DNA of 41,812 nt, from contig JADFNE010000037.1 of the NCBI GenBank assembly GCA_022563535.1, positions 1 to 41,812 on the forward strand. The letters run 5' to 3'. A program made the position numbers and the translations under genes. This document shows positions 4,326 through 35,457 of the stretch, piece by piece; the first letter of the stretch is position 1, and every line of letters starts with the position of its first letter. Origin of the DNA: Myxococcales bacterium. GTDB taxonomy: Bacteria > Myxococcota_A > UBA9160 > UBA4427. The notes beneath the pieces were generated by a model. That model worked only from the letters and a program-made list of their open reading frames with translations, ran no database searches and was not told the DNA's origin.

Positions 4326-5057
4326 ATGACCCACATAAGAACAATCTCCCAAACTCTCGTTCTAGCGCTAATCGCCATCATTGCGACACCGATCGGCGAT
4401 TCTGCAGGTGCCGACAATTCTGATTTACCGCGTTACCTGTTCATCGGCGATTCGATTTCGCGAAGCTACAACCGTGGATTGCGAGCGGCGCTCGAGGGCA
4501 AGTTCGACGTGCATCATCCGCCAACCAATTGCGGGTCTTCGGCCAGGGGGCGCGCGAATATTATGAGCTGGTTGGGAGCGTATGGCGAGAAGGGGCGTCA
4601 ATGGGATGTGATTTCCTTCAACCATGGGCATTGGGATTCGGACATCACCAAAAGTGAGTACCAGGAGAACTTGGAAGCCATTATCGTGGAGCTGAAAAAG
4701 ACGGGCGCGAAGTTGATTTGGGTCACGACATGCCCCGTCCCGAATGGACTGGGCGAGGCCAAAGAGCTAACTGAAGAGGGTCGGGCGCCGGGGCGTAGAA
4801 CAGGTGTGATGGAAAAATTCCTCAATCTCTGGGCGGCCGAGGTAATGGCTCGGCATCCGGAGATTTCCATCTGCGACCAATGGCAGTTCGTGAAGAACAA
4901 TGAAGGCGGCCTCTATACCCAATGGTGGGCGGGCAGGGACGTGCATTTCACGGGGGAACCCGCAGACGCTCTTGGTCGGTTCCTGGCGGAGCACGCGCTG
5001 ATGGTCGCTGGGGACTCAAAGACTCGAGCCAAGGTTCAGCCGAAGGCCAAGCGGTAG
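4326..5057 (+). CDS. Secreted SGNH/GDSL-type hydrolase
   Basis: A 243-residue exported esterase-like protein. Residues 1-29 form a signal peptide (hydrophobic LVLALIAIIATPIG, then Ala-rich). Block I of the SGNH fold is FIGDSIS (Ser43 nucleophile) and the catalytic Asp205-x-His207 dyad is in DVHFTG near the C-terminus. Block III may be in the SFNHGHWD segment near 98-104, whose Asn is in the usual oxyanion place. The ester substrate, such as an acylated sugar, is unknown. Its stop codon abuts the GTG of the downstream amidohydrolase, so the two are almost certainly one transcript. Confidence 0.85.
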   Translation: MTHIRTISQTLVLALIAIIATPIGDSAGADNSDLPRYLFIGDSISRSYNRGLRAALEGKFDVHHPPTNCGSSARGRANIMSWLGAYGEKGRQWDVISFNHGHWDSDITKSEYQENLEAIIVELKKTGAKLIWVTTCPVPNGLGEAKELTEEGRAPGRRTGVMEKFLNLWAAEVMARHPEISICDQWQFVKNNEGGLYTQWWAGRDVHFTGEPADALGRFLAEHALMVAGDSKTRAKVQPKAKR

Positions 5058-8951: not shown

Positions 8952-9172
8952 GGACTGGTTTCCTCGTCTGGACTGATGTGGAATCGCGTGGGCTGATCGA
9001 GATCGACTTCATTCGTCGCAATCGAATCAGCACAATAACCATGTCGGCTCGGATTGGCGATGGCCAACGGATTGGTCCACGAGCCAGCGTGCTATTTGCG
9101 CGCCGGTGGCTTGTTTTGCAAAATTGCGGCTTGAATTGCCTATTCTCCATGGATCCATCGTTGGAGGTTGGC

Positions 9173-9460
9173 GTGAGCCGGAGAGCAGGCAATCTTACAC
9201 TCGTTTGTCGACTCGTATGCAGCGCTCTCGTTGCCGGGGCTTTGGTTTACTGGAACGGTGTGGCTGACGGCGACGTGTACCACTTTCTCGGCTTGGTTTT
9301 GCTTGCCCCGATTGCTGGGGTCGTCCTCATTGCAAATTCCCTGTTCTGCCTCGTTCGCTATCACGGCTGGAGGTCGGCCTCGGTTGCGCTCATCTTCATT
9401 CCTGTTGGCGCCGTGGGAATCCTTCTGGCGGTGCATTTTCTACCGCAGTTCAGGATGTGA
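9173..9460 (+). CDS. Small integral membrane protein, uncharacterised
   Basis: Starting at GTG 9173 (GGAGG at 9163-9167, five bases upstream) gives a 95-residue protein with three hydrophobic segments: LTLVCRLVCSALVAGALVYW, then FLGLVLLAPIAGVVLIANSLF and SVALIFIPVGAVGILLAVHF. The same frame is open upstream to 8978 and has an ATG at 9149, but the upstream part is basic and unlike a protein N-terminus. No family recognised. It is divergent from the CoA-transferase and 183 bp before the glycosyltransferase cassette. Confidence 0.6.
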   Translation: MSRRAGNLTLVCRLVCSALVAGALVYWNGVADGDVYHFLGLVLLAPIAGVVLIANSLFCLVRYHGWRSASVALIFIPVGAVGILLAVHFLPQFRM

Positions 9461-11085: not shown

Positions 11086-14000
11086 TTGGGCCAGCAGCGA
11101 CACCCGCGCAGCGATGAGATGCTCGACTCGCTGCGCGAAGAAAATGTCACGACCTGGTTCGACCTGTGTCTATTTCTGGATCGCCTGCGAGAGAACCGAC
11201 CGAGTCCCGCGTGCCAGCCCAGCGCGGATCTGCCTGCCTTCGAGCGAAACGTCGCGACCGGTATTGCCTTCATTACATTCGATATCGGGATCGACGGCGT
11301 CTCGATGGAGATTGCGAAGTACGCAGAAGCGCTGCGGCTGTTTCTCGGAAATCCCAGGATTCACTACATCGCAGGTCACTTCGAAGAGTTTTCGGACCAC
11401 GTCATCAACCCCGAAGATACCTGGCACATCCTTCCAATCATTCAGGGATTCAATGATTGGCCGAGTTATCGCCACTTCTTCTCGCAAAAACTTGACCGAG
11501 GCGGGCCGCTCTACAACGAGTTGATCGGAAGGATCTGGTCCGAGGTGTTGAGCATCTGTGAGCAGCTGGGTGCGATCATCGAAGAACATGACATCCGCCT
11601 CCTCTATCTGGTGAACACGAATTCCAACCCCGGAAACGTCAGCCTTGGCCTGGCGACGGTCCTCGTCTCTGAATACCTGGGGATTCCCGTCGTCAATAAT
11701 TGTCACGACTTCTACTGGGAGGACGGTGAAAGCGCGGTTGCGCGCGAAGTCGCAGGGACCTCCCGCGGCCCACGCGATCACTTTTTCACCAACTCACATG
11801 TGGGGGAGTTTTTCTCGGTGATCGAGATGCTCTACCCGTGGGAGTCGCGCAGCTGGGTATCGGCGTGCATCAACGCGACCCAGGTCGACGTACTGTGCAA
11901 ACGCTTTGGTCACAATCCCGCGAACCTCGTTGAGATCGGAACCGCAATCGACACCCAGCACTTTAGAATACTCGACCGGCGCCGCACCAAGGATGCGTGG
12001 AAGCAGGTCGCGGATATCCTGAGTGACGGTCGCGTAAGGCTTCCCGCCCATGCGGTTGCCGATGTCATCAAAGAGGGACGGCTTGCGGCGGATATTCGCC
12101 GTCCGATGCTGATTGCCGGGACCAAGCAAGCGAACGTAGACTTTGCAAACGCGAACACAGTTCTCCTTCAACCCACCCGTATCATCTCACGCAAACGGAT
12201 CGAGGTGAGCCTCAAGCTCATCGAAAAGCTATTCGGAATCTCACGCTTCCTGAACGCCTTTCTCGATCATCCCGAGAAGAAGCTCACACTCCTGGTCAGT
12301 GGCCCCGTGGCTCAGGGCCAAGATGCCTATCTGGAACGATTAGTCGGCGAGTTCTCGAAGTTCGTTGTTCGGCTTCCGAAGGCGGTACAAGGCCGGGTCT
12401 ATCTCGCTTTCCTCTTCAGTGAATTCGATCATGCGGAATTTCGCGCCCAACAATCGGATCCGATTGAGATGCCTGAGCTCTACAACATCTCCTCCCTTGT
12501 CGTGTTGCCGAGCAAGACCGAAGGACGAGGCTTGCCCATCATCGAGTCCGCGGCGTGTGGTGTTCCGATTCTGACCCATCACTACGAACCCGCCGAGGTC
12601 TTCGCAGCGGTGATCGGTGAAACCCTTGCTCGCGAGGATCGCCTCGACGTCATCATCTTTCGAGGTACCAAGTTCAAGGACGCCATGGTCGAGAGGCTCT
12701 GTGAGCAATTGTTATCTCCCGATCGTCCAGAGGATATGCGCAGTCACAATCGTCGGGTCGTCGAGCGCCGATTCAGTCTCGCCGCTCTGACTCTGGATTT
12801 TGGACAGATACTTGAAAAGCTCCACCTTCAAATTCAGAAACCCAAGCGCTGGATGAAGTGTGCGGGCAATGCGATGGAGCGGTTCGCCGAGCGAGTCGCC
12901 GTGAAAAGTCCAGAACTCGACGCCTTGCTCGAGACTCGGCAACGCACGTATCTGCCCGGCTTCGGTCGCATGGGCCTCATGCTGATGCTGAAGTCGCTGA
13001 TCGACCCCAGCTATTTCCGAATCGAGGAACAGCGCATGCGCGGAATGGCTTTCGAGTTTGCGAAGAGGCTGATGCGCGAGACGCCTGGGGCAGACGACCT
13101 GGACCTCGGGGATTGTGCGGACTTCTACAACGCCATAGACAGTCTCTTCTGGGTTCAAGCTGGCGAGATTCCGATTCAGGTCGATCACTCCCTTGCGTAC
13201 CGACACCGGAGTCGCCGTCATCATCCCTATCGCGAGCTGACCCCCCAGGAACTTACTGGTGTCATTATCTCGATCCACCGGGAGGCGTTCGGTCCGATTC
13301 CATCGGTCGAGGTTGCGTACGATACTTCGCACCAAGTAGCGGATTGGCCCGCAATGGTGGCGCGGTGCTTCGGCGGCGGGATTCCCGAAATCGACGACCG
13401 GGACTTTCTCAACGAGCGCCTCCGCGAGGACGTTCCGGTTGCAATCTTCCCCGGAGCATTGACGGAGCACGAACTCGAGGTCTTTGTGCTCCAGACGGCG
13501 CGCATGCGGCTAGGCCTTGGAACCCATGACGAACTTCCGGCGGAGTTTCTCGCTCGAATCAGGCGCCTTGCACCGATCACGATAATCGAAAGACGGGACC
13601 CACTGCCTGGGGGGGTCAGCGCCGAGACGCTCGAGAAGTATTTGGTGGAGCGGGCGGACTGGGAACTCAAGCTGCTCTACGACACTGGAGTCTGTCGCGT
13701 CATCGCCAGCGAGCAGATGTCCGTAGGAATCGACTTCCGTCAACTCGGTGACGAAGCAACTCGGGTACTCGATGAGATTCGCGCAGCGGGAGGCTTCATC
13801 GTCGCGCTCTGTCCAGAGGCGGCGATGACCACCGATGCCGCAACACTGGACCGTTTTCACATCGGTTGCGCCACAGATCCGACGACGGCGAACATTCTCG
13901 GCATCGCGCTGGGCGCGGGCTATGTACAATGGTCACCTGCGGGTGTCCGTTCTACGCTCGCGTATCCGACACCAGTGCAGACCGCAAAGAGTCTCAGCGA

Positions 14001-15252
14001 AACGCTACACACCGGGCGATATGCGCGACTACGCAAGCGCCTTGGTGACTCCGCGCTGCGAAAGGCACTCTGCGAGGACGCGATCACTTGCGGTTCGCGG
14101 GTTGAAGACCTCATCGAACGTCTCGCGACCGTGAAGGGTTCTCAACCGGGGCGGGTGGAAGCCCATGCACTGAACGGCGTGTACAGCGATGGCTGTCCGT
14201 GGTCGGGCGTGATCGCGCGAGTCCCGCCCTCTCGCAGGGCGCTCCAGTACGAGATTCTCTCTTCCAACAAGGGCAACCAGACCGTGCCCGAATTCGTGCG
14301 TCGCTTTGATAAGTCTGCTGACCGCCGCGCACAAATCGCGTGGAATGGCGGCTACATCCTGAACGCAGAGCTGGTGGGAAAGCTCGGTCTCCCCGAGAGT
14401 TACATCGGCTCTCCCCTGGGATTGATCATTTCGCAGCAGCGGCTGCTGAGTCCACCGCTGTTCGAAAAGCCTGCGTTTCTGGTCGGAGAAGATCGAACAC
14501 TCTCGATTCGTCGCGTGAGTTGCAAACAAGGGCTGACCCTGCGAGCCGGACGAACCACCATCGAACTCGGCCCAGAAACTCGCAATCTCGCCAAGCCCGG
14601 ATCTGATCCGTGCTTCTACGACCTCTTCTACGATGCACCGACACTGCCCGGAGACGGCCGATCGCTCGTACGACTGGTAGGCAATCGAATCATGGAAATC
14701 GTGAATACGAAGTCGGGTGAACATCCGCCAGTGCTCCCGGTTGGCCTGGTGGTTTCGTTCTCGGCAAAGAGTGTTCCGAACAGCTGGAAGGTTGGACGGG
14801 CTCTCGCAATCGAGATCGTTGGACTCACGGGCATCGGGAATGCGGTGGAGGCTGGACCCCTGCTGCTCGCCGAGGGCAAGATCGCGGTCGACATGGAACG
14901 GGAGGGATGGAAGACGCGAACCTCCATTCAGTCCCAAGCCGCTCGCATCGACTACCTCGACATGCGCGGGCCAAAAATTGCGATCGGGCTCGACGACCAG
15001 GGCACTCTGGTTGTTCTTGCGGTGAACGGCCGCATTCGCGAGTCAGTCGGTGCGACCCACATCGAAATGGCGGAGATCCTGCTCGAGCAGGGCATGCGGA
15101 GCGCGATGGGATTTGATCCCGGTGGCAGCGCGACGCTTGTCGTCAACGGAGAGACCCTGAATATTTCGCCCTACAATCGCGACTACGAGCGGAACGTTTA
15201 TTCCCTCTCACCGGAGCCCCGCAGCGTGGCGAACGCCGTGGTGGGCTATTGA
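11086..15252 (+). CDS. Giant fusion: GT4 glycosyltransferase + unassigned middle + NAGPA-like phosphodiester glycosidase
   Basis: A single open frame of 1388 residues. Residues about 50-575 are a GT-B glycosyltransferase: TFDIGIDGVSMEIAKYAEAL near 64-83, NCHDFYWEDGE near 205, TRIISRKRIEVSLKLIEKL near 365, and the E-x7-E motif in KTEGRGLPIIESAACG near 476. Residues about 600-1055 match nothing I recognise; they contain a His/Arg-rich YRHRSRRHHPYRE and an IFPGALTEHELEVFVLQ segment. Residues about 1060-1388 fit the phosphodiester glycosidase (NAGPA/DUF2233) domain: IAWNGGYILN near 1081-1090 and GFDPGGSATLVVNG near 1342. No signal peptide or membrane segment is seen, although NAGPA-domain proteins are usually exported. 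TTG at 11086 has AGGGGG just upstream; ATG at 11119 is an alternative. It probably shares a transcript with the upstream glycosyltransferase. Confidence 0.8.
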   Translation: MGQQRHPRSDEMLDSLREENVTTWFDLCLFLDRLRENRPSPACQPSADLPAFERNVATGIAFITFDIGIDGVSMEIAKYAEALRLFLGNPRIHYIAGHFEEFSDHVINPEDTWHILPIIQGFNDWPSYRHFFSQKLDRGGPLYNELIGRIWSEVLSICEQLGAIIEEHDIRLLYLVNTNSNPGNVSLGLATVLVSEYLGIPVVNNCHDFYWEDGESAVAREVAGTSRGPRDHFFTNSHVGEFFSVIEMLYPWESRSWVSACINATQVDVLCKRFGHNPANLVEIGTAIDTQHFRILDRRRTKDAWKQVADILSDGRVRLPAHAVADVIKEGRLAADIRRPMLIAGTKQANVDFANANTVLLQPTRIISRKRIEVSLKLIEKLFGISRFLNAFLDHPEKKLTLLVSGPVAQGQDAYLERLVGEFSKFVVRLPKAVQGRVYLAFLFSEFDHAEFRAQQSDPIEMPELYNISSLVVLPSKTEGRGLPIIESAACGVPILTHHYEPAEVFAAVIGETLAREDRLDVIIFRGTKFKDAMVERLCEQLLSPDRPEDMRSHNRRVVERRFSLAALTLDFGQILEKLHLQIQKPKRWMKCAGNAMERFAERVAVKSPELDALLETRQRTYLPGFGRMGLMLMLKSLIDPSYFRIEEQRMRGMAFEFAKRLMRETPGADDLDLGDCADFYNAIDSLFWVQAGEIPIQVDHSLAYRHRSRRHHPYRELTPQELTGVIISIHREAFGPIPSVEVAYDTSHQVADWPAMVARCFGGGIPEIDDRDFLNERLREDVPVAIFPGALTEHELEVFVLQTARMRLGLGTHDELPAEFLARIRRLAPITIIERRDPLPGGVSAETLEKYLVERADWELKLLYDTGVCRVIASEQMSVGIDFRQLGDEATRVLDEIRAAGGFIVALCPEAAMTTDAATLDRFHIGCATDPTTANILGIALGAGYVQWSPAGVRSTLAYPTPVQTAKSLSETLHTGRYARLRKRLGDSALRKALCEDAITCGSRVEDLIERLATVKGSQPGRVEAHALNGVYSDGCPWSGVIARVPPSRRALQYEILSSNKGNQTVPEFVRRFDKSADRRAQIAWNGGYILNAELVGKLGLPESYIGSPLGLIISQQRLLSPPLFEKPAFLVGEDRTLSIRRVSCKQGLTLRAGRTTIELGPETRNLAKPGSDPCFYDLFYDAPTLPGDGRSLVRLVGNRIMEIVNTKSGEHPPVLPVGLVVSFSAKSVPNSWKVGRALAIEIVGLTGIGNAVEAGPLLLAEGKIAVDMEREGWKTRTSIQSQAARIDYLDMRGPKIAIGLDDQGTLVVLAVNGRIRESVGATHIEMAEILLEQGMRSAMGFDPGGSATLVVNGETLNISPYNRDYERNVYSLSPEPRSVANAVVGY

Positions 15253-15300
15253 TGAGACCACAGCAAGTGGACCGCAAGAAGGATTGCAAAGGAGATTCCC

Positions 15301-15885
15301 GTGGCGAGGCTTGAAGGCGTTGGCGATTCAGAAGCTGGCCTGGTTACCCGCCAGGTCTTCAGGGGTGCGGCGAAAAAGTTGGGCGTCGTACCCGATCCGC
15401 TGCGCCTCATGGCCCACTCAAAGCCGGTCATGTTTGCAGACATCCTGTTTGAACTCGCTTGGGCCAAGGCCAAGAACCTCGACCCGGTGCTCAGAGATCT
15501 GTGCCAACTCAAGGTTGCATCGATGGTGGGATGTTTGTTCTGACTGGACATCGGCTCTGCCGTCGGCAGAGAAGACGGAGTCAGCGAAAGGCAGATTGCC
15601 GAGCTGGCGAGTTATCGGGAAAGTGATGCGTTTGACGAACTACAGACACTGGTACTCGACTACGCGGTTGCCTTGACCCAAACCCCGGCGGTTGCAACGG
15701 ACGAGCTGGTGGCTTCGTTGCGAATGAGCCTCGACGAAGTGGAACTGGTCGAACTCACCACCGGTATCGCCTGGGAAAACTTCCGCGCACGCTTCAACCG
15801 CGGGTTCGATGTCGCGGCACAGGGCTTTTCAGACGGAGCGTTCTGCCCAATTCCGGAGCGTGCTGGAGCCGCGCCGACGACTTGA
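15301..15885 (+). CDS. AhpD/carboxymuconolactone-decarboxylase-like protein with in-frame TGA at the redox CxxC: candidate selenoprotein
   Basis: GTG at 15301 has GGAG at 15291-15294. Eighty codons lead to TGA at 15541-15543. The same frame then stays open for 113 more codons to a TGA at 15883-15885, giving a 194-residue product if the first TGA is read. Both sides match one family: KLGVVPDPLRLMAHSKPV and LCQLKVASMVGCLF before, LDIGSAVGREDGVSERQ, FDELQTLVLDYAVALTQTP and IAWENFRARFNRGFD after. Cysteine-containing relatives have GC-x-x-C-x-D-I-G here, so the TGA replaces exactly the second Cys (position 81; first Cys is 78), making a Cys-x-x-Sec pair. Such proteins are peroxidase or thiol-reductase-like. 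A hairpin meeting bacterial SECIS rules follows. The alternative is a TGC/TGT to TGA nonsense mutation or a sequencing error. No sel genes are in the window. Confidence 0.75.
15541..15543 (+). other. Candidate selenocysteine codon (UGA, position 81)
   Basis: In-frame TGA at the position of the resolving or attacking Cys of the AhpD-like CxxC motif (GCLF-U-LDIG). Reading frame and family similarity continue without shift on the far side. Confidence 0.65.
15555..15571 (+). promoter_or_regulatory. Candidate bacterial SECIS hairpin
   Basis: CTCTGCC-GTC-GGCAGAG forms a perfect 7-bp stem with a 3-base loop whose first base is G. Eighteen bases separate the TGA from the loop. The bacterial SECIS rules, as I recall them, ask for a loop of 3-14 bases with a G in its first two positions, a 4-16 bp stem, and 16-37 bases from UGA to the loop. 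All are met. The structure lies inside the coding frame, as expected for SelB-dependent recoding. A 7-bp perfect stem in GC-rich DNA could also be chance. Confidence 0.6.
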
Positions 15886-19924: not shown

Positions 19925-19988
19925 TCGCGTATCCCCCTTGGGAGATAAGAAACTCGACACAAATCGGCTCAGATCACCACTCTTCTAT

Positions 19989-20702
19989 GTGAATCATTTG
20001 ACTCGAGTGGCTCTGATCGGTTTTGTGGTGATGCTGTCGATCGCTCCCTCGCTCGCTTTTTCGGCGACCATTCAGCATTCCGCGACATTTGCGGCGTATC
20101 AGCCGAGCATGTTCCGAACCGATTCATATTCCGATTGTATCTTTGACCCCGGTAGTTCATCGCACGGCCAATGCTACACAGACGAAACTTGGTTTGGCAT
20201 ATCTGAAGTGCCGCAATTCGACAGCGAGCTCGGTAAATTGACGAGCGTATCGGTGGAAGCGATTTTTTTTGCCGATGTGACTGCGGGGACAGATGGGCGG
20301 GAGGGTTACATACCCAACAAAACATATCTCTATTTGGATATGGACTTCGCGATCTACAATGGCCCGAGCATATACAGCAGTCGTTACACCGTGAACGATT
20401 CCCAAGATGAGTGCGATCCCACTTGCAGCTTGAATTGGATGTTGAATAACACCATCGAAACGATCTTCACCGACGACGCCTACCTGTTCATTGGCACGGG
20501 AACTCTTGAAGTCAACTTCCAGGCACGTGTTGACATCCGAGGGATCCTTGCGCTGTTCTATCAAGAGCCCCGTTTAGAGGGAACTCTCGTCACGACCTAC
20601 ACCTATACTCCAGTGCCAGAACCAGGAACGGGCGCCATGCTAGGCGCCGGCATGCTAGTGCTGAGTCTGGGGCGGCGGATCACACACAAGCGAACTGACT
20701 GA
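19989..20702 (+). CDS. PEP-CTERM sorting-domain protein, secreted
   Basis: From GTG 19989 a 237-residue protein with a signal peptide (VALIGFVVMLSIAPSLAFSA) and a C-terminal PEP-CTERM signal: VPEPGTGAML, a hydrophobic stretch and a basic end RRITHKR. Such proteins are processed by an exosortase (EpsH family) and often go to the surface with exopolysaccharide. The mature part is rich in Tyr, Ser and Asp, with a likely disulfide pair (DECDPTCSL), and no enzymatic motif is seen. The frame extends upstream to a TTG at 19938. Codon use is more AT-rich than in neighbouring genes. No exosortase gene is in this window. Confidence 0.82.
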   Translation: MNHLTRVALIGFVVMLSIAPSLAFSATIQHSATFAAYQPSMFRTDSYSDCIFDPGSSSHGQCYTDETWFGISEVPQFDSELGKLTSVSVEAIFFADVTAGTDGREGYIPNKTYLYLDMDFAIYNGPSIYSSRYTVNDSQDECDPTCSLNWMLNNTIETIFTDDAYLFIGTGTLEVNFQARVDIRGILALFYQEPRLEGTLVTTYTYTPVPEPGTGAMLGAGMLVLSLGRRITHKRTD

Positions 20703-33523: not shown

Positions 33524-33627
33524 GTTGGGATGTCCTTGCGACAACTCTACCATGCTGCCGGATCGCTTCGTAGATTCGAATTCAAGCTCGATTGTGCCCG
33601 CAGAAGGCATGGTCCATACTTTCATGC

Positions 33628-35457
33628 ATGTCAAATCCGCAGCCGGTACCGGGAGAAGGCGTGCCCAGGCCACCTGTCGAGACGGCAACGCGTGTACTTT
33701 CCACTCTATACGTTGTACTAGTCGTTCTGTTTGCAATTCACGTCGTGTGGGTCGCGATCGACACTCACTATACGATTCCCACCAGGGACGACTGGCGCCT
33801 TCTCGACGGCATGTTCTCATCACCGACCCTGGAGTGGATACTTACAGACCAGGTCGGCCACCGGGTCCCCGTCACGCTGTCATTGATGTATTTCGATTAC
33901 ACGATCTTTGGCGGCCACATGCACCTGCTCGTGTTGGCTTCTTTGCTTTGGACGGGTGTCGCGGTCGCAATACTCGCGCGAGCACCGCGCTTTCGAGACT
34001 TGTCGCTTGACCCGCTCGCCTGGACCGCCGTGGCCTTCGCGTGCTTCTTGTTTTTCTGGGCCGTCTCGAGACACGACCTCGGGTGGGGGATGCATCAAGG
34101 AACGCTCCTATCGGCCATGTTCGCTGTCGTGTCTGTAGCCGCATTGGGAACTGCCGCTCGTCGCAAGCTCGACAACGGAATACCTGGGACGCTCCCGCTA
34201 CTCACCGCAGTTGCCGCGGCGATCGGGGCGAGCTTCAGTTCGGGAATCGGCTTTGCGTGCTGGGCTGGCCTGTTTACCGTGAGCCTGCTCATCCCGTTGT
34301 CGGCGCGTGCGATTGCTGCGCTTTGGGTCTGCGCTGCAGTTGTGCTCGTGGTGTACATGACGGGGCTCGAGGACTCGGGTTTCAAAGCGCCCAAAGACGC
34401 CTATCTTTGGAAACTTTCGAACGTTCCTGGCAGACTCTTCGAGTTTGCAATCGCCTACGTCGGAGCGCCCGCGGCAACCCTTTTCGCCGGTGCTCCAAAA
34501 GCCGATGCGTACAATTTTGCACGATTCGCCGGCGCCATCGGATTTGCCGGGTACGTCACCTTGGTTTTGTACTTGGTGATTCGTCGCGACAAAATGACAC
34601 CACTTCATGTGTTCGCAGTCGGACTGCCGAGTATCGCGCTGGCCGGAGGGTTCATGGTCGGGCTCAACCGCCTCAACTGGCCGAATTACCCCTCGATGGC
34701 CCTTCGCTATTCAACCTGGTCGACTCTTTTTTGAATTGGTCTCGTTTTCGCGATTCCCTCCTTGCGTCGGCGTCCGAACTTTCGACCAGGCTGGCCGTCT
34801 CTTTTCGGCATAGTGCTATTTGTCGGGCTGTCGGTTCTTCTCCTCCCAGAGTTTCGCGCGCAGCGTGGCGCTCAAGCTGCGCACAAGTCTTACAATGCAT
34901 ACATAAGCACAATGCATCTGCTCGGGATTCGCTGGGACCCGATGTCGAAAAACTCGATCCGACCGCTGCCTGACCGCACCTACCGGATCGTCGAACGGCT
35001 GCGGCGAGATCGTCGAAGTTTCTTCGGAGAGCATCGCGCTTCATGGGTTGGCAGTTCCATAGCCGACGACTTCGAACTGGCCGACGATGACCGTTGCACG
35101 GGTGGCGTTAGTTGGACGCAGCTGACGCTCACGCGTGATGATCCGGTGCTGCGGGTAACAGGCTGGGCCATCGATCACAAACGCGAAACGCCAATCGAAC
35201 ATATCCTGGTCGCAGACGGAGCAGGAATCGTGAGAGGGCTCGGAATTTACGTTCGGAGGGACGCAGATCTCGGCGAGATCCAGCTCCCCTTGGAAGATTT
35301 TCCATGGGCCGGGTTCTTGGGACAGCCCAGTGGCCGCGGGCCGTACCGCGCTTTCGGTGTCCTGAACGGATCGCTCATCTGCGATCTGAAACTGTCAGCC
35401 AAGGCGATTCGGTGGCCTGGCTACCAGCACCGCAAGTTGAGAGCCAAGCCGTTATAG
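33628..35457 (+). pseudogene. Polytopic membrane protein gene interrupted by an in-frame TGA
   Basis: From ATG 33628 the frame encodes about nine hydrophobic segments, starting VLSTLYVVLVVLFAIHVVWVA, with the loop HYTIPTRDDWRLLDGMF and HRVPVTLSLMYFDYTIFGG. It stops at TGA 34732-34734 in the middle of a membrane segment (TWSTLF-stop-IGLVFAI). The same frame then continues without shift for 240 codons. A further membrane segment (LFGIVLFVGLSVLLL) and a soluble periplasmic-type domain (DDFELADDDRCTGGVSW) lead to TAG at 35457. The simplest reading is a Trp TGG to TGA change in a glycosyltransferase-like or O-antigen-type membrane protein of about 609 residues. The family is not recognised with certainty. 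No SECIS-like hairpin follows this TGA. Confidence 0.6.

Follow-up and report, generated by a model that had tools for sequence, protein, structure and literature searches.

A predicted Cys-x-x-Sec selenoprotein of the AhpD fold in a Myxococcales bacterium

Known AhpD-like selenoproteins and the gene described here

AhpD-like selenoproteins with a Cys-x-x-Sec (CxxU) motif were reported from the Sargasso Sea in 2005 (PMC1088965), the AhpD-like 1 and 2 selenoproteins are among the commonest in the GOS samples (PMC2398784), and later inventories list CxxU proteins under COG2128/YciW or TIGR01926 (PMC9312934, PMC13188914; MCB9421940.1 is an example). The bacterial gene described here is of this kind, which has thus been known since 2005: by their published descriptions, it shares with these examples the AhpD/CMD type, the selenocysteine (Sec) at the second position of the CxxC motif and a SECIS-like hairpin downstream of the TGA. 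The novelty lies in the gene as such, in a subfamily that scores below the curated cut-offs of both NF053654 and TIGR01926, and in the documented spread of that subfamily in this order.

The best family match of the protein is the NCBIfam model NF053654, YciW-related (seleno)protein, which aligns with residues 1–175 (E value 1e-29 to 1e-30) and is matched by all 15 aligned members of the subfamily; the score of the protein, 103.5–105.7 bits against a cut-off of 310, places it outside the equivalog as curated. The same is true of TIGR01926, peroxidase-related enzyme (32.7 bits, cut-off 81.8). Of the NCBIfam models scanned, only TIGR00778, which represents the short AhpD core domain, covers the subfamily with scores above the cut-off. 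A literature search on selenoproteins of Myxococcota and on the debrominase Bmp8, which is discussed below, found no papers.

The subfamily is spread through one order and has members elsewhere in the same phylum, and it is a well-supported addition to the known selenoproteins, in a lineage where selA is nearly universal and where redox genes of the peroxide type use Sec. It leaves the understanding of Sec coding unchanged. Ordinary gene calling is expected to split such a gene at its TGA. The features of the gene, numbered in the window (the whole stretch of 41,812 nucleotides that was analysed), are the following.

15288–15300, + strand: region of the ribosome-binding site, AAAGGAG before the GTG at 15301, from reading of the sequence; GGAG-type sites precede most homologues
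15301–15885, + strand: selenoprotein gene, AhpD-like Cys-x-x-Sec, 194 codons; GTG start at 15301, coding part 15301–15882, TGA stop at 15883–15885
15532–15534, + strand: codon 78 (TGT) for the Cys that opens the CxxU motif, without variation in the homologue alignment
15541–15543, + strand: codon 81, TGA, predicted to be read as Sec; TGA in the homologues of 26 genomes, TGC or TGT in Cys homologues
15555–15571, + strand: SECIS hairpin CTCTGCC-GTC-GGCAGAG, perfect 7-bp stem and 3-nt loop beginning with GU, −10.0 kcal/mol when folded alone
15844–15846, + strand: codon 182, TGC, Cys of the C-terminal tail and candidate resolving thiol, invariant in 15 Sec homologues

The in-frame TGA and its hairpin

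The first-pass annotation had described an 80-codon frame, a TGA and 113 further codons with matching family content on both sides. The frame is indeed so built (80 codons from the GTG at 15301, the TGA at 15541–15543, 113 codons and the TGA stop), and the match of the read-through protein to the Pfam CMD family spans the TGA. The motif across it reads GC-L-F-U-L-D-I-G, with the TGA in place of the second Cys of an AhpD-type CxxC. That relatives have Cys at this position also holds, since Cys homologues carry TGC or TGT at codon 81. The start codon lies exactly 80 codons 5′ of the TGA in 15/15 homologues. An in-frame TGA at the Cys position of homologues, with similarity on both sides, is the pattern by which bacterial selenoproteins are recognised. 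Only nine TGA triplets of the window have a start at least 20 codons upstream, at least 60 open codons downstream and a CxU, CxxU or UxxC motif; codon 81 is one of these, and its gene belongs to a recognised redox family.

The hairpin that follows has the 7-bp stem and 3-nt loop first attributed to it, at 15555–15571, but the eighteen bases that had been given as the distance to the stem in fact separate the TGA from the apical loop (15562–15564, GTC), the stem itself starting 11 nt after the TGA. The distance used by the SECIS rule is the one to the loop. According to the bSECIS rules, the stem has 4–16 bp, the loop 3–9 nt with a G in its first two positions, the distance from the UGA is 16–37 nt and the minimum free energy is at most −7.5 (PMC13188914). 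With 7 bp, a 3-nt GUC loop, 18 nt and −10.0 kcal/mol, the hairpin lies within all these limits, as had been claimed for its spacing. A perfect stem of at least 7 bp in SECIS geometry follows 8 of the 1231 TGA triplets of the window (0.65%, both strands), and one of these eight is the mirror image of the hairpin itself. An RNA model of the hairpin gives good scores only at its own locus and on its mirror strand; at the four best weaker matches, which were inspected, there is no plausible Sec frame.

The hairpin overlaps the codons for SAVGRE, so that constraint on the RNA had to be told apart from constraint on the protein. In the homologue alignment, 93.3% of the cells of the stem are paired, against 36–51% in slid controls, a comparison that is somewhat biased in favour of the hairpin because its structure was taken from one of the aligned sequences. 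Two-sided changes occur in three of the seven pairs, and the covariation score was reached by none of 500 shuffles. In most homologues the Ser codon TCT, which makes up 9.8% of the Ser codons of the window, pairs with the Arg codon AGA (4.4% of the Arg codons). In one homologue (L020) the Ser codon is TCG and its partner Arg codon is CGA, and the two face each other in the stem; in L024, the most distant of the members, the entire stem is rewritten, amino acids included, and is still paired. The Cys homologues that were examined have TGC or TGT at codon 81, no hairpin and no codons of the TCT/AGA type. Judged from these sequences, the hairpin is kept in the TGA members, partly through compensatory changes and the use of rare codons.

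Homologues and Sec machinery

Among 61 related genomes, there are 15 close homologues (this gene counted among them), all of which have TGA at exactly codon 81. The other 14 are 36–75% identical to the gene over both sides of the TGA. A wider profile search in 379 genomes of the phylum brings the number of genomes that carry the TGA form to 26, again with its own, while TGC takes the place of TGA in homologues from certain other families of that phylum; on a quick tree of 39 rows, the Sec or Cys label changes three times. A scan of named genomes returned a single relative, which is distant (27% identical). The gene is patchy: a genome of the same genus (G001) has no close homologue. One of the 26 (L072, G187:C217:5413–5925) keeps the TGA and the hairpin and has a TAA stop soon downstream, and is a decayed or mis-assembled copy.

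The TGA is only one base away from the Cys codons and the draft assembly consists of 147 contigs, which could make one think of a Cys gene that has decayed by a nonsense mutation, or of a sequencing error for TGC or TGT. We give this reading a negligible probability: 26 separate genomes have TGA at codon 81 together with the conserved hairpin, and these homologues in practice refute it. Selection is moreover intact 3′ of the TGA, contrary to what is expected of a decayed gene. The ratios of nonsynonymous to synonymous changes between the gene and its relatives are 0.18–0.36 after the TGA and 0.25–0.55 before it, with synonymous sites near saturation in the more distant pairs. In every pair, constraint is stronger on the part after the TGA than on the part before it, which excludes a dead tail. 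The comparison of close homologues proposed in the first-pass annotation thus finds the TGA kept and the downstream part under purifying selection, with no decay.

A search of the genome for selA, selB, selC and selD had also been suggested, and all four are present. In this draft genome, which is 97.9% complete with 4.63 Mb in 147 contigs, the tRNA-Sec, of anticodon UCA, scores 73.2 bits (cut-off 47), selA 540 bits, and selB 283 bits with the C-terminal winged-helix domains of SelB. The selD gene (336 bits) has an in-frame TGA of its own (GGUARK), followed by an 8-bp SECIS-like hairpin. Two genes for PrxQ/BCP-like peroxiredoxins have TGA at the peroxidatic Cys, in the motifs FTGGU-T and TPGU-T, and probably code for further selenoproteins, going by their sequences. 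In the search of this genome, no AhpC was found over the cut-off; the two Sec-type PrxQ-like genes were found instead.

G000:C15:56143–57069, − strand: selD with in-frame TGA (L044), SECIS-like hairpin after the TGA
G000:C119:4234–4569, − strand: PrxQ/BCP-like peroxiredoxin gene (L092), TGA at the peroxidatic Cys
G000:C59:14818–15177, − strand: PrxQ/BCP-like peroxiredoxin gene (L093), TGA at the peroxidatic Cys

The machinery and the TGA-bearing selD and PrxQ-like genes indicate that this organism makes active use of Sec in redox enzymes. Each of the 26 genomes that carry the TGA form also has selA; since selA is nearly universal in the order (57 of the 61 relatives), this co-occurrence counts for little within the order.

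The residue inserted at a recoded UGA cannot be told from the reading frame alone, and UGA might in principle be read as Trp or Cys, by recoding or by a suppressor tRNA. This is very improbable here, given that the genome has the complete Sec machinery and that the TGA members keep the SECIS-type hairpin, which the Cys members examined lack. The selenoprotein gene and the upstream open reading frame both end in TGA, which shows that TGA is still a stop in this genome. Homologue TGA codons and hairpins, downstream selection and the Sec machinery thus led us to reject the pseudogene, the sequencing error and the non-Sec recoding.

The gene, the conservation of its TGA and hairpin, the Sec machinery and the fold of the protein are all results of computation. 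The conserved TGA, the hairpin, the machinery and the downstream purifying selection together give strong computational support to the read-through into a 194-residue Cys-x-x-Sec protein that had been proposed at the outset, with TGA in 26 genomes. We predict, with a confidence close to certainty, that the TGA of codon 81 is read as Sec in a redox protein of the AhpD fold. SelB, loaded with Sec-tRNA(UCA), would bind the hairpin just 3′ of the UGA and insert Sec.

Fold, active site and possible reaction

The read-through protein matches the Pfam CMD family PF02627 above its cut-off (39.7 bits against 23) over residues 45–115. An AlphaFold2 model built from 15 aligned rows shows a helical core of good confidence (mean pLDDT 83) and is poorly defined beyond residue 168 or so. 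Fold matches of this model include the AhpD of pneumococcus (Z 19.1), the AhpD of Deinococcus (18.6), Atu0492 (18.5) and the debrominase Bmp8 (18.4), and the Z scores with AhpD-type chains are in the range 17–19, over most of the length of the protein. The family match and the predicted structure thus identify a protein of the CMD/AhpD fold; the product would be an all-helical AhpD-like (CMD/YciW-type) redox enzyme of 194 residues, with the motif Cys78-Leu-Phe-Sec81.

The AhpD of Mycobacterium tuberculosis and PA0269 of Pseudomonas aeruginosa have the same fold and carry their CxxC pair in the corresponding helix hairpin (PMC3141380). The AhpD relay consists of Glu, Cys, Tyr/His, Cys and His, the Glu being 12 residues before the first Cys and the last His 4 residues after the second (PMC3141380). 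The protein described here differs from both enzymes in that it has Sec for the second Cys, Asp66 for the relay Glu and Gly85 for the relay His; none of the 15 members has Glu at position 66, and just three have His at position 85. The AhpD fold and the redox pair are therefore present and the AhpD proton relay is absent, which makes peroxidase action by the AhpD route doubtful. Of the initial description as an AhpD-like thiol peroxidase, the AhpD-like fold stands, whereas "thiol peroxidase" is only a guess in the absence of the relay Glu and His. It may be asked whether the loss of the relay His is a consequence of the presence of Sec; we rejected this idea, as Cys homologues also have Gly at that position.

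At neutral pH a selenol is already ionised, and would therefore be nucleophilic without the help of a relay. In the reaction that we envisage, Sec81, in its ionised form, would attack an oxidised substrate, the selenenyl intermediate would be resolved by Cys78 or by Cys182, and a dithiol donor would then reduce the enzyme. The invariant Cys182, a tail Cys that is also found in most Cys homologues, lies in a flexible, low-confidence C-terminal tail in the model and may act as the resolving thiol. As for the class of substrates, reduction of peroxides or disulfides, alongside the Sec-peroxiredoxins of the genome, is the putative role that we favour, and it is probable rather than assured. It seems unlikely, though conceivable, that the proteins form a distinct subfamily of AhpD-fold selenoenzymes in which a Sec81/Cys78/Cys182 relay replaces the AhpD proton relay and whose substrate is other than an alkyl hydroperoxide.

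By analogy with Bmp8, which uses Cys, it may also be that the protein is a selenoprotein whose Sec acts on a small molecule in some other reaction of the thiol type. Bmp8 (6ohi/6ohj) shares the fold along almost the entire chain and has a CxxC pair, it is one of the best matches by profile as well as by structure, the Glu and His of the AhpD relay (PMC3141380) are not conserved in the family, and there are catabolic genes in the window (dioxygenases, sulfatases), none of those adjoining the gene being conserved. However, the identity with Bmp8 is only about 20%, Bmp8 has Cys and not Sec, the scan of window genes showed none for halogenation, no halogen-related neighbours were seen beside this gene, and the Sec-peroxiredoxins of the genome fit peroxide defence. 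We regard this alternative as a serious but secondary possibility, and retain peroxide or disulfide reduction as the most likely role.

The neighbourhood of the gene points to no substrate, since it is not conserved: in the 15 homologous regions compared, none of the neighbour genes of the window recurs beside a homologue, and neighbours are shared among close pairs of relatives only. Frames of 160–380 residues at 4326–5057, 8978–9460, 19938–20702 and 33592–34734 of the window have no Pfam match, and some of them may not be genes. Just upstream of the selenoprotein gene, at 11086–15252, a frame that does not adjoin it elsewhere joins a glycosyltransferase group 1 domain and a phosphodiester glycosidase (NAGPA) domain in a single stretch of 1388 residues.
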